Source: a bacterium
Lineage (GTDB): Bacteria; JACRDZ01; JAQUKH01
Assembly: GCA_040754625.1 (NCBI GenBank)
Contig: JBFMCF010000066.1
Location: 1-36,074, forward strand
Length of the DNA stretch: 36,074 nucleotides
Direction of reading: 5' to 3'
Below are positions 18,026 to 23,859 of the stretch, piece after piece. The notes beneath the pieces are model-generated. The model was given only the letters and a program-made list of their open reading frames with translations. It ran no database searches and was not told the DNA's origin. Each line of letters begins with the position of its first letter. Position 1 is the first letter of the stretch. The translations under genes were made by a program, and so were the position numbers.

Positions 18026-20683
18026 TCAATGCTTTTTCTCTTTCACTTCCTCCTGCAGGGAACTCAAGAGATTAATCGCATCCAGGGGAGTCAAGTTCTT
18101 TATGTCAAGACTTTTGAGTTTTTCAATTATAGGATGGTTTATATTAAAGGAACTTAAAAACAAATCCATTTGATCTTTAAAGACATTTTCCTTTCGTTTT
18201 TTAATAATCTTTGCGCTCCCGTCTTCATTTACGCTGTTTTTTTCAAGGTCGTTCAAAATTTCCTTTGCCCTGTTTATCACAGGTTTCGGAAGCCCCGCGA
18301 TCTGCGCCACGTGAATTCCATAGCTTTTGTCCGCTCCCCCGGGGAGAATCTGGTGAAGAAAAATAACCTCATCATTCCATTCCCGGACCGCCACATTGTA
18401 ATTTTTAACACCTTTGAAAGACAGCGCGAGTTCCGTAAGCTCATGGTAATGTGTCGCGAAAAGGGTCCTTGCTTTTATTTTTTCATTTATATGGAGAAAT
18501 TCCACAATCGACCACGCAATACTTAACCCGTCAAACGTGCTTGTGCCACGCCCTACCTCGTCCAGAATTATCAGGCTTTTATTTGTCGCGTTATTTAAAA
18601 TATTGGCCGTTTCATTCATTTCGATAAGAAATGTGCTTTCGCCCTTCACAAGATTATCCATGGCCCCGATTCTTGTAAATATCCTGTCAACCAACCCGAC
18701 CTCAGCGGACTCAGCCGGAACAAATGAACCGCATTGCGCCATCAAAACTATCAGAGAAACCTGGCGGATATATGTCGATTTCCCGGCCATGTTCGGCCCT
18801 GTTATAATAAGAATCTGGTTTTCTTCAGTATCCATTATTGTATCGTTTGAAACAAAATTTTGAAGCGATTCAATTTTTTCAACAACAGGATGCCTGCCTT
18901 TTTTTATTATAAGCTTATCACCGTCATTAATGACCGGACGAACATAATTATTTAAATAAGCCGCGGCTGTTAAACTAAGGATTGCATCCAACCCGCTTAT
19001 AATATTGGAAACACCCTGGATAACGGGAATACCCGGCCCGATAGATTCACAAACCTTTTTGAAAAGCTCCATCTGGAGGTTCGAAATTTTCTCCTCGGCA
19101 CTCAGGATTTTGCTTTCGTAATTTTTTAATTCGGATGTTATAAAACGCTCGCAGTTGGCAAGTGTCTGTTTTCTGATATAATCCGCCGGCACTTGTGACA
19201 GGTTGGGGTTGCTCACCTCAATATAATACCCGAATATCTGGTTAAACCTGACCTTTAGGGACTTTATCTTCGACCTTTCTCTTTCATTATTTTCAAATTT
19301 AACCACCCAGTCTTTCCCGGAAGAGACAATTTCCAATAATTCGTCTAAATCACCGTTGAACCCTTTTTTGATAATTCTTTGCTCTTTAAAATTAAATGAT
19401 ACATTTTCTTCGATTGATTCATCAACCAGCGCAATAATATTTTTTATCCGGGCCGAATTATTTTCAATGTTTAATCTGGCGTTTTTCAATAATGCCGAAT
19501 TGAATTTTTCGAGTTTAAACTTTATGCCGCAAATAATCGTTTTTAACGATTCCTTTAATGAAATTAAATCCCGCGGGGTGACAATATTGATATTATCCAG
19601 ACGGGAAACTATCCTTTCAATATCCAGTATGTTCGATAACTCCGACCTTAAACCGTCTCTTTCTATATTCTTTTTTAATAGTTCTTCAACCGCGTCCAGT
19701 CTTTCATTTATTAAAAAGTCTTTTATAAGAGGATGTGTTATCCAATATCTTAATTTTCTCCTGCCCATCGGAGTAACTGTTTTGTCAATTATTTCAAGCA
19801 AGCTTCCTTTTTTTGATTTTGTATTCTGGCTTTCAATAATCTCAAGGTTTCTCTGTGCGGCACTGTCAATAATCATGTAATTCTTAAAATTATATTCACT
19901 TATTTTGGAAATCTGGCTTAATCTTGTCTTTTGATTATCTTTTACATATTTGAATAACGCGCCCGCGGAAGAAATTGCCTCGCCGTTTTCTTCATTTATT
20001 CCAAAGCCTTTTAATGAATTAGTTTTAAAGTGGTTTATTAAACTATTATAAGCCGCGCTTCTGTCAAATTCCCAGTCATTCAGAAAAGTAAGATAAATAT
20101 CCGGAAATTCTCTTTGAATTTTCCCTGCCCATTCACGCCTCAGGCTTTCCGGCATGACGCATTCCGACGGCCCTAATATTCCGATTTCATCAGTCAATTT
20201 ATCAACTTTATTTTCATCATTGAATTCAGCGCACTGGAACTCGCCCGTTGAAATATCTATAAAAGAAAACCCAACCGCGTTTTTGGAAAATGAAACGGAA
20301 ATTATAAAATTATTTTTTGAATCATCCAGAAGCCCGGATTCAAGAACGGTCCCCGGGGTAATAACTCTTATCACTTCTCTTTTTACAACCCCTTTAGCGG
20401 TTTTAGGGTCTTCGACCTGTTCGCAAATCGCCACCTTATAACCTTCCTTTATAAGGCGCGAGATATATGGATACGCGGAATGATGAGGCACCCCCGCGAG
20501 CGGGATTTTATCCTCTTTCCCGCCGTCCCTGCTTGTTAAAGTTATTTCTAGTATTTTTGACGCTATCTTTGCGTCGTCATTGAACATCTCATAGAAATCG
20601 CCAATCCGGTAAAAGAGAATAGCGTCCTTATAATTCTCTTTTATCTTCTGATATTGGCGCATCATCGGGGTTAATGTTTCCAT
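18026..20683 (-). CDS. mutS: DNA mismatch repair protein MutS
   Basis: Full-length MutS1 (885 residues). The mismatch-recognition domain carries 'FYRIGDFYEMFNDDA' with the Phe-x-Glu element (about 24-35). Connector, lever and clamp domains follow, then the ATPase with Walker A 'TGPNMAGKSTYIRQ' (about 625), Walker B 'LIILDEVGRGTSTFDG' (about 704) and the 'FATHYHEL' H-loop. The helix-turn-helix dimerisation region is near 'GIHVAQIAGLPKPVINRAKEIL'. ATG is preceded by AAAGGA. No mutL is present in the window. Located between the accessory AAA/DUF4276 cassette and LPS genes. Confidence 0.98.
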   Translation of the reverse strand: METLTPMMRQYQKIKENYKDAILFYRIGDFYEMFNDDAKIASKILEITLTSRDGGKEDKIPLAGVPHHSAYPYISRLIKEGYKVAICEQVEDPKTAKGVVKREVIRVITPGTVLESGLLDDSKNNFIISVSFSKNAVGFSFIDISTGEFQCAEFNDENKVDKLTDEIGILGPSECVMPESLRREWAGKIQREFPDIYLTFLNDWEFDRSAAYNSLINHFKTNSLKGFGINEENGEAISSAGALFKYVKDNQKTRLSQISKISEYNFKNYMIIDSAAQRNLEIIESQNTKSKKGSLLEIIDKTVTPMGRRKLRYWITHPLIKDFLINERLDAVEELLKKNIERDGLRSELSNILDIERIVSRLDNINIVTPRDLISLKESLKTIICGIKFKLEKFNSALLKNARLNIENNSARIKNIIALVDESIEENVSFNFKEQRIIKKGFNGDLDELLEIVSSGKDWVVKFENNERERSKIKSLKVRFNQIFGYYIEVSNPNLSQVPADYIRKQTLANCERFITSELKNYESKILSAEEKISNLQMELFKKVCESIGPGIPVIQGVSNIISGLDAILSLTAAAYLNNYVRPVINDGDKLIIKKGRHPVVEKIESLQNFVSNDTIMDTEENQILIITGPNMAGKSTYIRQVSLIVLMAQCGSFVPAESAEVGLVDRIFTRIGAMDNLVKGESTFLIEMNETANILNNATNKSLIILDEVGRGTSTFDGLSIAWSIVEFLHINEKIKARTLFATHYHELTELALSFKGVKNYNVAVREWNDEVIFLHQILPGGADKSYGIHVAQIAGLPKPVINRAKEILNDLEKNSVNEDGSAKIIKKRKENVFKDQMDLFLSSFNINHPIIEKLKSLDIKNLTPLDAINLLSSLQEEVKEKKH

Positions 20684-20723
20684 AGGGTTCCTTTAACGTA
20701 CCGTAGGGGTAGGGCAGTTTCCA

Positions 20724-21377
20724 TCATAGATTTTCTAATTTTTCCAGCCATAGATTAAAATGTTTACACTCTTTCCTGATAGCATTTAATCCAATTCTGT
20801 TTGTTATTAACGGACCATGAAGTGTTTTTTGGTAAGAAGGAAATAGATTAGATAAGCGTTTTGATGGAATAGTATTTGGATTGTCATTGATTTCTTCTGT
20901 AGAATTAAACTTCCTTTTAATTTCAGCAATTTCATTTACTTTTCTCATATTATTAAAAGCTTTCCCTATTTCTTCCGGCGAAACGAAAACTAACGATTCG
21001 AATTCATGCAGTTGTAAGTAAGGAATAAACCTGGGACTATTTATATCTTTCTGAAACAGATTTTCAAGAGAGGCAACTCTGTCAAAACAAATATGCCCTT
21101 GAATTTTATCTTTAAATGGGACCATAGAAGAAAATCCGTAATAATCAATCATTGTTGTTACAATACACACGCTACTATCTAGTAAAAGACGAATTATATC
21201 ATTTTTGACCTTCTCATAAGATGTAATTCCACCTTTAAAAATTAAGCCGGATTTCACTTTTTTTGTTCTTGCAATCACCGGATTGCAATATAACTTATTT
21301 CCAAAATAAGGCAAAAATACTCTTTTTACAAAAGTTTCTTCTGTTTGTCCTTCAACTAAAATATGTATTTTCTTCAT
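20724..21377 (-). CDS. DUF4276 family protein, TOPRIM-like putative nuclease
   Basis: The 217-residue protein begins MKKIHILVEGQTEETFVKRV and has 'GGITSYEKVKNDIIRLL', 'IVTTMIDYYGF' and 'LQLHEFESLVF', the conserved blocks of DUF4276. The Glu in 'VEGQTE' and the Asp in 'MIDYYG' are placed like the metal-binding acids of TOPRIM domains. The ATG at 21377 is two bases after the stop of the AAA ATPase gene and follows GGAAGG, so the longer frame to 21413 is rejected. Tight coupling means the two act together. Family function is not established. By analogy with TOPRIM/ATPase pairs such as PARIS, it may be a nuclease effector held in check by the ATPase. Function is an inference. Confidence 0.8.
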   Translation of the reverse strand: MKKIHILVEGQTEETFVKRVFLPYFGNKLYCNPVIARTKKVKSGLIFKGGITSYEKVKNDIIRLLLDSSVCIVTTMIDYYGFSSMVPFKDKIQGHICFDRVASLENLFQKDINSPRFIPYLQLHEFESLVFVSPEEIGKAFNNMRKVNEIAEIKRKFNSTEEINDNPNTIPSKRLSNLFPSYQKTLHGPLITNRIGLNAIRKECKHFNLWLEKLENL

Positions 21378-21379
21378 AA

Positions 21380-22456
21380 TTATGGCCTTCCGCCAATTAT
21401 ATTCTTCTCCCATAAATCACCCAATCCATATTCCTCAAGCCAATTTTCCATATCTTTTTTATTCAATCGTTTGAAAGTTGATTGGTCAACATTTCTATTA
21501 ACCACAATAATATCTCCAGGGTCAAATTGGTTTACAAATGTAACAGATTGTGTTGCGATAATTATTTGTGTTTTTGTTGCAGCGCTTTTGATTAGGCTCG
21601 ACAACAGTGTGATTGCATAAGGATGAAGCCCTAATTCAGGTTCATCAAGCAAAATAATAGAAGGTAAATCAGGTTGAAGTAAAAGAGTTGCAAGACAAAT
21701 AAACCTGAGAGTACCATCAGAAAATGAATGAGAGTTAAATAAAACATCAGAACCTTTTTCTTTCCATTCTAACTGAATAAGATTATTATTAATTGGATTA
21801 TGTCTGAGGATAAAATCATCAAAAAACGGGGCAACATTTTGAATTGTTTCTACAATATTTCTATAATCCTGTGGATATTTTTGTTTAAGATAAAATAAAT
21901 ATGCTGCGATGTTTGAAGCATCAGGCTGAAGTAAAATATTATCGTTAATATTGCCAAATTGTTTCATTTTCGAAGAATCACTTGTATCATGAAAGTGATA
22001 TAATTTCCAACTCTTAATAGTATCTAAAATAAATTTGGCAGTTTTTTCGGATCTCTGGACATCATACATGTTTGTTTCATCATTACCATTATATTCGAAT
22101 GCAATATATGGTTCTCTATATCCTTCACCATAGAAGCATCCTTTTTCCTTTGAAAATATTAATGTATTTTTTAAAGTTGGAATCAAAGAAAAATGATAAC
22201 TATTTTGTCCAAAAAATAAATCTACAAATAATTCTTTAGTTTGTTTCTGTCCAAAATATAATAATGAATCGACACCGCCTGATTGAGCAACAAATACCTG
22301 AAGATTTTTTTCGATTATTTTATTGATTAATTTAAAAAGAGAAACAAAATTAGACTTTCCGACACCATTTGCTCCTATCAAAATGTTTAAGGATTTTAAT
22401 TCAATATTCATTTCTTTAACAGACTTGAATCCTTTAACTTCTATTTTTTTAAGCAT
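21380..22456 (-). CDS. AAA_21/OLD-like ABC-type ATPase, partner of the DUF4276 protein
   Basis: A 358-residue SMC/ABC-type ATPase without a coiled-coil or C-terminal TOPRIM. Visible: 'MLKKIEVKGFKSVKEMNIEL', Walker A 'ILIGANGVGKSNFVSLF' (about 27-42), signature-like 'SFSDGTLRFICLATLLL', Walker B 'IILLDEPELGLHPYAI' and a 'IIIATQSVTFV' motif in place of the usual ATHS. This class drives many defence and toxin modules in company with a small effector gene. It lies 20 bp after lapB and directly before the DUF4276 gene. By eye the pair is more AT-rich and poorer in CCGG/CGCG words than its neighbours, which would fit acquisition by transfer. The Shine-Dalgarno (TAGGA) is weak. Confidence 0.85.
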   Translation of the reverse strand: MLKKIEVKGFKSVKEMNIELKSLNILIGANGVGKSNFVSLFKLINKIIEKNLQVFVAQSGGVDSLLYFGQKQTKELFVDLFFGQNSYHFSLIPTLKNTLIFSKEKGCFYGEGYREPYIAFEYNGNDETNMYDVQRSEKTAKFILDTIKSWKLYHFHDTSDSSKMKQFGNINDNILLQPDASNIAAYLFYLKQKYPQDYRNIVETIQNVAPFFDDFILRHNPINNNLIQLEWKEKGSDVLFNSHSFSDGTLRFICLATLLLQPDLPSIILLDEPELGLHPYAITLLSSLIKSAATKTQIIIATQSVTFVNQFDPGDIIVVNRNVDQSTFKRLNKKDMENWLEEYGLGDLWEKNIIGGRP

Positions 22457-22476
22457 AATAATTTATTCCTATAGAA

Positions 22477-23544
22477 TCAATCTTTATTTTTTTTAATGAA
22501 CACTTCATCAATCTTATTAAAAATCGCGAGGGCCTCGTCTTTTTTTCCGCTTTTTAAGTATAATAGATATAAATTTCTGTATGCCCTGCCAAAATTACTT
22601 TTGTTTCTGACTACCTCAAGATATAAATTAATCGCTTTGTCTTTTTGCCCCATTTTCTCATATATTTCTCCGAGGGCAAAATTTATTTCAGGAACATTTG
22701 GATATTTTGCCAGCATTTCCTCGTAAAAGGAAATCATCTTTTCGAATTCCTGCTCTTCAAAATATGCATCCTCCAGTTTTTTATCAATCTTCGGGAGGCT
22801 TTGCGGGTCAAGATTAATCACTGTCTGCCATTCTTCAATTGCTTTCTGGATTTTGCTTTCATTATAATAAATATTGCCTAATCCGATATGCGCATTAATA
22901 CAGCCTTCATGGAGATCAACGGCTTCCTTATAACACTTCAAAGCTTCCTTAATGTCCTGCCTCTTCATATGATTATCACCTATAAAACTCATTAATAAAG
23001 CCAGTTCGTTTTTATCCTGGGAATTCTGGAGCTTTAATATTCTTTTTTGTATTTCATACGCCTCTTCCCACATCTCCAGCCGTTTAAGAATATTCTTAAA
23101 AGAAATATTCAATGAAAGTTCTTTAATCCCAAATCCCATAAGTTTGTTAACAATACCTTTAATCTTATCCCAATCCTTGCTGCTAATCATAATAAAGTCA
23201 TTTAAAAGGCAAAAATATGTTTTTACAAGCATATCCCTGGAAATTGTCTGCCTGAGTGTAATCCCTTCATGAATTTTTATGGCCTTTTCAAAATTCCCTT
23301 TTTTTCTATAAATATCGCCCAATTTCAAATATGCTTCCACATGGTCGGTATCCAATATTACAACTTGCTTTAACGCGACAAGCGCGGCATTAAAATTTTG
23401 TTCGATAATCAAATTTAACGATTTAATATAATACTCGTTTGCTTCTTTTTTAGTCTTGCTCTTCTGCCTTTGTATCTGCCAGTTCTTATGAAAAACTATC
23501 CAGCCAAGGAAAAAGCCGATTATCAGCAATACCATCTGAGGCAT
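22477..23544 (-). CDS. LapB-like membrane-anchored TPR protein lacking the rubredoxin domain
   Basis: A 355-residue protein with an N-terminal membrane helix (about 2-18, 'MVLLIIGFFLGWIVF') and at least eight TPR-type helix pairs, e.g. 'VEAYLKLGDIYRKKGNFEKAI' and 'PEINFALGEIYEKMGQKDKAI'. Architecture and position directly after a LapA gene match LapB (YciM), which with FtsH adjusts LpxC levels and so LPS synthesis. E. coli LapB is 389 residues and ends in a zinc-binding rubredoxin-like domain that is essential for its activity; here the protein stops after the last TPR with no Cys pairs. It may be a natural short variant or have lost the tail when the neighbouring cassette inserted. ATG directly follows the lapA stop. 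Confidence 0.75.
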   Translation of the reverse strand: MPQMVLLIIGFFLGWIVFHKNWQIQRQKSKTKKEANEYYIKSLNLIIEQNFNAALVALKQVVILDTDHVEAYLKLGDIYRKKGNFEKAIKIHEGITLRQTISRDMLVKTYFCLLNDFIMISSKDWDKIKGIVNKLMGFGIKELSLNISFKNILKRLEMWEEAYEIQKRILKLQNSQDKNELALLMSFIGDNHMKRQDIKEALKCYKEAVDLHEGCINAHIGLGNIYYNESKIQKAIEEWQTVINLDPQSLPKIDKKLEDAYFEEQEFEKMISFYEEMLAKYPNVPEINFALGEIYEKMGQKDKAINLYLEVVRNKSNFGRAYRNLYLLYLKSGKKDEALAIFNKIDEVFIKKNKD

Positions 23545-23859
23545 TTACTCTTCTCCTTCTTTAGTCAATTCTTCCGTTTCCATTATATCTATGTTGCGAA
23601 ATGATTTTAATTCTTCATTCTGTTTTTCTATCAAGTCCTCTAAACGTTTTATTTCACGTGATATTTTAAACTGGCGCATAACTCCAATAAGACTTACTAT
23701 TACCATACCTATAATCATCGAAATAATTATTATAAAAACCAGCGGGACCTCAGGAGAATGCCAGCCAAAAAAATGCATGGTTATGGGGTTAGGATTCTGA
23801 ATGCCTAAAACTACAAAAACAAGCACCAAAAAAAACAGGAAAATTACTTTTAATTCCAT
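23545..23859 (-). CDS. lapA: LapA (DUF1049) inner-membrane protein
   Basis: A 104-residue protein with two membrane helices (about 5-20 and 38-62) and a C-terminal cytoplasmic coiled coil ('SREIKRLEDLIEKQNEELK'). The 'LGIQNPNPITMHFFGWHSPEVPLVFIII' stretch is the LapA/YciS signature. LapA works with LapB in the control of LPS synthesis. ATG has AAGGAGATAA upstream. It is placed directly before lapB (TAA followed by ATG), the standard order. Confidence 0.85.
   Translation of the reverse strand: MELKVIFLFFLVLVFVVLGIQNPNPITMHFFGWHSPEVPLVFIIIISMIIGMVIVSLIGVMRQFKISREIKRLEDLIEKQNEELKSFRNIDIMETEELTKEGEE

Follow-up and report, generated by a model that had tools for sequence, protein, structure and literature searches.

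In PARIS, a hexamer of AriA sequesters AriB, and Ocr-like triggers lead to the release of AriB. HEC systems were reportedly described by Payne et al. in 2024 (bioRxiv 2024.01.29.577857), and Krishnan et al. (2020) are said to have treated ABC ATPase conflict systems in a study that may already describe the dyad of an ATPase and a DUF4276 protein. The passages of PMC12988326, PMC11411939, and PMC12111858 that refer to the class cite a 2024 preprint as its source, HEC standing for Hma-embedded candidate; HEC-06 is named in the first of these papers, and antiviral activity has been reported for HEC-04 (IbfA), a fused ABC ATPase-TOPRIM protein (PMC12111858). The architecture of an ABC ATPase combined with a TOPRIM domain is typical of OLD/PARIS defense (PMC10568477), and in PARIS the ABC ATPase AriA keeps the TOPRIM nuclease AriB sequestered until triggered (PMC12409363). 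For the OLD protein of Burkholderia (BpOLD), a two-metal site has been defined experimentally that comprises E400, E404, D455, D457, T506, E508, and K562 (PMC6755086). Our literature search retrieved no paper under the name DUF4276 and, for HEC-01, only one relevant paper, which names HEC-01 in a list.

The window analyzed here, i.e., the whole stretch of 36,074 nucleotides (contig JBFMCF010000066.1), carries two adjoining genes on the minus strand, both of them real and read as separate ORFs in different frames. The upstream gene (21380..22456, minus strand) encodes a 358-aa ABC-type ATPase that matches Pfam AAA_21 (1.2e-29) and is the predicted sensor/regulator, and the downstream gene (20724..21377, minus strand) encodes a 217-aa protein that matches DUF4276 (8.1e-51) and is a predicted TOPRIM-derived nuclease; for both proteins, Pfam, PADLOC, and an AlphaFold2 (AF2) model were consulted. 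At the junction, two bases (TT) separate the TAA stop codon of the ATPase gene (21380-21382) from the ATG of the DUF4276 gene at 21377, which is the gap of 2 nt that the first-pass annotation had reported. A longer DUF4276 frame starting at 21413 exists, and the family alignment begins at 21377. Searches against defense-system models matched the ATPase to PADLOC HEC-01A (PDLC04175; 1.8e-152, residues 2-358 of 358) and its partner to HEC-01B (PDLC04188; 3.9e-76, residues 1-217 of 217), and HEC-01B was matched by 47 of the 47 aligned DUF4276 relatives. Because both genes match their models so strongly and over their full length, the pair does not constitute the undescribed system that had been proposed for this locus; it is a new instance of HEC-01, a catalogued candidate phage-defense system of uncharacterized mechanism.

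The description of the first protein as a stand-alone AAA_21/OLD-like ATPase with intact Walker motifs was borne out, as the key positions of its motifs are invariant or nearly so among 38 relatives. More specifically, the Walker A motif GANGVGKS (residues 28-35; 22352..22375, minus strand) has invariant G28, N30, G31, G33, and K34; the ABC signature-like SDG (residues 246-248, within SDGT at 246-249; 21713..21721, minus strand) is conserved in 37/38 (S), 37/38 (D), and 38/38 (G) relatives; and the Walker B motif IILLDE (residues 267-272; 21641..21658, minus strand), which includes the catalytic Glu272, has D271 and E272 in 38/38, the intact stretch of residues 267-279 reading IILLDEPELGLHP. 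The AF2 model of HEC-01A (pLDDT 81) has structural matches to SMC/Rad50 heads, PtuA, and OLD.

The model of HEC-01B was of higher confidence (pLDDT 88.4, pTM 0.85), the alignments used for the two structure models being shallow (7 and 6 sequences, taken from the window and related loci). When this model was compared with the PDB by means of Foldseek, the only credible matches were 6njx, 6njw, and 6njv, three crystal forms of the C-terminal region of Xanthomonas OLD, i.e., the class 2 OLD TOPRIM; probabilities were 0.95, 0.92, and 0.90, and the matches were modest in E value (5.6e-3 to 0.018) and TM score (0.37-0.40). A search of a viral structure library yielded nothing better than E 0.03, and a PDB sequence search with the DUF4276 profile gave no match. 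The logic of an ATPase joined to a TOPRIM-like nuclease, which the annotation had put forward, is supported, and nuclease chemistry is probable for HEC-01B.

Several conserved residues of HEC-01B (namely, E9, E13, D78, Y80, E125, E127, and K184) parallel the BpOLD site in the same order and at similar spacing, an assignment made by order and spacing alone rather than by residue-level structural superposition. The predicted metal ligands E9 and E13 (21339..21353, minus strand; conserved in 46/47 and 47/47 relatives, respectively) form an ExxxE with the spacing of BpOLD E400/E404, and E9 together with G10 (47/47) supplies the glutamate and glycine expected of a TOPRIM domain after strand beta-1, which spans residues 2-8 in the model. 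D78-x-Y80 (21138..21146, minus strand; both residues 47/47) occupies the position of the TOPRIM DxD; H124-E125-F-E127 (20997..21008, minus strand; H124 45/47, E125 and E127 47/47) would supply the metal B ligands at the position of BpOLD T506/E508; and K184 (20826..20828, minus strand; 47/47), at the position of BpOLD K562, is the predicted catalytic lysine. The earlier claim of acidic residues placed as in TOPRIM nucleases therefore stands for E9 and D78 and fails for the second aspartate of DxD, which is an invariant tyrosine. Likewise, a metal-site constellation of acidic residues and lysine is conserved, in an altered form that has DxY instead of DxD in 47/47 aligned relatives. Because Tyr80 replaces this aspartate, HEC-01B falls outside a strict TOPRIM definition; the DxY could be an active-site variant.

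These data also bear on whether the pair is a variant of PARIS or AbiL proper, in which the DUF4276 protein would be an AriB- or AbiLii-type effector that cleaves tRNA once freed from an ATPase ring. Such a variant would share the gene logic of an ABC ATPase with a separate TOPRIM protein, AriA being itself an ABC ATPase that sequesters AriB (PMC12409363), and short motifs resembling VEGxTE and HExE are also present in RloB and DUF4435 sequences. However, at E values of up to 1, the DUF4276 protein matched only HEC-01B models in PADLOC and neither AriB nor AbiLii, and the match of the ATPase to the AriA model PDLC02980 is unspecific, as its extent, both in residues and in model length, equals that of the generic Pfam AAA_21 match. 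Profile-profile comparison (hhalign) of HEC-01B with OLD, RloB, and DUF4435 gave no significant result against what were shallow comparison sets, with probabilities of 4% for DUF4435 and 1.4% for RloB (n = 4 sequences). We thus regard a PARIS or AbiL variant as unlikely, and the earlier view that the pair differs by sequence from both systems, having no AriB, DUF4435, or RloB match, was upheld.

The HEC-01 family spans several phyla, among them Cyanobacteria, Proteobacteria, and Bacteroidetes, and is also found on plasmids and in phages. Among 49 loci with a full-length DUF4276 gene, a few of which are near-duplicates of one another, 47 have a full ATPase gene as the immediate upstream neighbor in the same orientation, most commonly joined by a 4-bp overlap (26 loci); the two exceptions lie at a contig edge (L002) or beside a broken AAA gene (L065). 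In addition, each of the more distant DUF4276 genes (loci L013-L026) shares its 3.5-kb locus with an AAA_21-type ATPase gene, which indicates that the pairing is older than the subfamily of the window.

The surroundings of some relatives point to defense. In one locus (L097), the pair is enclosed by HmaB on one side and HmaA on the other within a complete HmaA/B/C system (order HmaC, HmaB, pair, HmaA), and in another (L098) it lies beside DISARM/type IIG-like and SNF2 genes. Plasmid copies are found near SNF2, WYL, and methyltransferase genes; near pAgo and PD-(D/E)XK genes; or near AIPR with NB-ARC, OLD with a methyltransferase, or a methyltransferase with a helicase and Mrr. On phage contigs, the pair directly follows a CI-type repressor gene in a Mu-like phage (L094) and lies near tail genes on a contig that has baseplate genes and an integrase (L093). 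No close relatives were found in phage records, and viral contigs gave 0 matches with a single-sequence query and 3 with an alignment query. PADLOC families matched at 1e-20 numbered 205 for the neighbors of 20 genomic copies versus 45 for 20 control regions from 16 of the same genomes, a difference that gives a direction and not a statistic, with overlapping models inflating the excess and the control matches being mostly PD-T4-6. Several of the 20 genomic relatives have ordinary housekeeping neighbors, as does the window copy, which is solitary in a housekeeping operon and outside any defense island, in a phylum that is sparsely sampled. The defense association suggested earlier therefore holds for relatives, through their Hma, restriction-modification, Argonaute, and AIPR neighbors, and not for the window copy's own neighbors.

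A further reading on which this context bears is that of a toxin-antitoxin or addiction module, which would serve mainly its own maintenance rather than phage defense. The two genes often form a compact, overlapping operon, plasmids are frequent among the carriers, and some plasmid copies sit beside VapBC or RelE-type modules. Against this reading stand the relatives that are embedded in Hma, located beside restriction systems, or carried as phage cargo, as well as an ABC ATPase-TOPRIM architecture that is typical of OLD/PARIS defense (PMC10568477); an addiction module is, in our judgment, quite improbable.

Some further observations were made among the relatives. A phage-type DNA methyltransferase gene adjoins the pair on the opposite strand at L093:8742-10049. 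In two Flavobacteriaceae MAGs (L004:10001-10657 and L006:10001-10519), the same DUF4276 gene is interrupted in frame by a stop codon after ~80 residues, i.e., it is a decaying copy, and the ATPase or DUF4276 frame is broken in L064, L065, and L086, which suggests frequent loss of the system. Two genomes (G050 and G097) have five DUF4276 matches each, indicating that some genomes accumulate several paralogous pairs.

To place the window copy, we compared its surroundings with those in a genome of the same genus (G001, contig C5). The pair is flanked by a lapB-like TPR gene (22477..23544, minus strand; orthologue in G001 81% identical), which is preceded by a LapA-domain gene (23545-23859), and by mutS (18026..20683, minus strand; orthologue 69% identical over residues 1-728). 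Whereas the distance from the lapB stop to the mutS start is 1,793 bp in the window (20684..22476), it is 8 bp in the congener, in which the junction lies on one contig and lacks the pair; DUF4276 was not found anywhere in that genome. The pair has a GC content of 29-30% and GC3 values of 0.23 and 0.20, compared with 0.26-0.43 for all other ORFs of the window. Its distribution is patchy (1 of the 4 genomes examined of the phylum), and the closest DUF4276 relative (67% identical), from an Elusimicrobia MAG (L002), has neighbors unrelated to those in the window. The same lapB-mutS junction without the pair in the congener shows an insertion relative to that genome, and the anomalous composition and patchy distribution favor gain over deletion in G001, which supports the view of the pair as an inserted, compact, horizontally acquired two-gene cassette. 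These results confirm the first-pass annotation as to the insertion between lapB and mutS and the lower GC, and they exclude vertical conservation at this locus. That the pair serves as a DNA repair accessory of MutS or of the lapB operon is highly implausible, for although it has the operon's orientation and lies directly upstream of mutS, the congener lacks it at this locus, its GC3 is anomalous, and its relatives have entirely different neighbors with no conserved linkage to mutS.

Neither a target-site duplication nor terminal inverted repeats were detected, and nothing longer than 7 bp is shared between the cassette ends. The 8-mer ATGGAAAC occurs twice in this part of the window (20675-20730), once at the start codon of mutS and once right at the DUF4276 gene's 3' end, and may be a trace of insertion or a chance repeat. 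Matches to a promoter or terminator of the cassette's own were at chance level only; given this and its operon orientation, the cassette is probably cotranscribed with the surrounding operon.

Taken together, our preferred reading, to which we assign a probability of about 0.68, is that the two genes make up a HEC-01 candidate anti-phage system acquired as a compact mobile cassette, in which the ATPase would sense infection and control a TOPRIM-derived nuclease; a defense function as such is quite probable. By analogy with PARIS, in which AriA sequesters AriB, and with OLD, we infer an ATPase sensor that controls a metal-dependent nuclease. HEC-01A, as an OLD/PtuA-type ABC ATPase, would assemble with ATP into dimers or higher oligomers, which would bind HEC-01B and detect a product of infection. 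HEC-01B, as a TOPRIM-derived metal-dependent nuclease (E9, E13, D78, E125, E127, and K184), would remain inactive or untargeted before the ATPase is triggered, in line with the restraint that the annotation had suggested. Thereafter, HEC-01B might cleave host tRNA/RNA in the manner of AriB, or DNA in that of OLD/Gabija, RNA and DNA being about equally plausible substrates, and the cleavage would stop the phage, probably by abortive infection. We tentatively raise a bolder proposal, for which the odds are rather against: that HEC-01B is a TOPRIM-derived nuclease with a remodeled two-metal site (ExxxE, DxY, HExE, K) and a substrate or chemistry unlike those of AriB and OLD, licensed by a separate ABC ATPase, so that HEC-01 would be a split OLD-like defense that is mechanistically a class of its own. 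The predicted DxY site, as an equivalent of the class 2 OLD two-metal site, provides a concrete set of mutants for the HEC-01 family, and the clean empty site places the cassette alone between housekeeping genes, where island-based discovery would miss it.

Compared with catalogued HEC-01, the window pair has the same gene order and two full-length proteins, with no system-level difference; the Hma embedding from which the class takes its name is found in relative L097 and not in the window copy. HEC-04/IbfA, from the same discovery class, likewise unites an ABC ATPase with a TOPRIM-like unit, but does so in one fused protein, whereas HEC-01 is encoded by two genes, its effector being a DUF4276 protein. 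PARIS resembles HEC-01 in having two genes, for an ABC ATPase (AriA) and a TOPRIM or TOPRIM-like effector (AriB, a tRNase), and differs in that HEC-01 has no AriB/DUF4435 match and HEC-01A no specific match to AriA. The effector of AbiL, the RloB-type AbiLii, is not matched by HEC-01B (hhalign 1.4% against four RloB sequences). Retron/Septu PtuA is among the nearest folds of HEC-01A, but its partner is the HNH nuclease PtuB, whereas that of HEC-01A is a TOPRIM-like protein. Class 2 OLD/GajA (Gabija) gives the best fold match to the DUF4276 protein, with the elements ExxxE, D, xxE, and K arranged and spaced alike; OLD, however, is a single fused polypeptide with DxD, whereas HEC-01 consists of two ORFs and its DUF4276 protein carries DxY.
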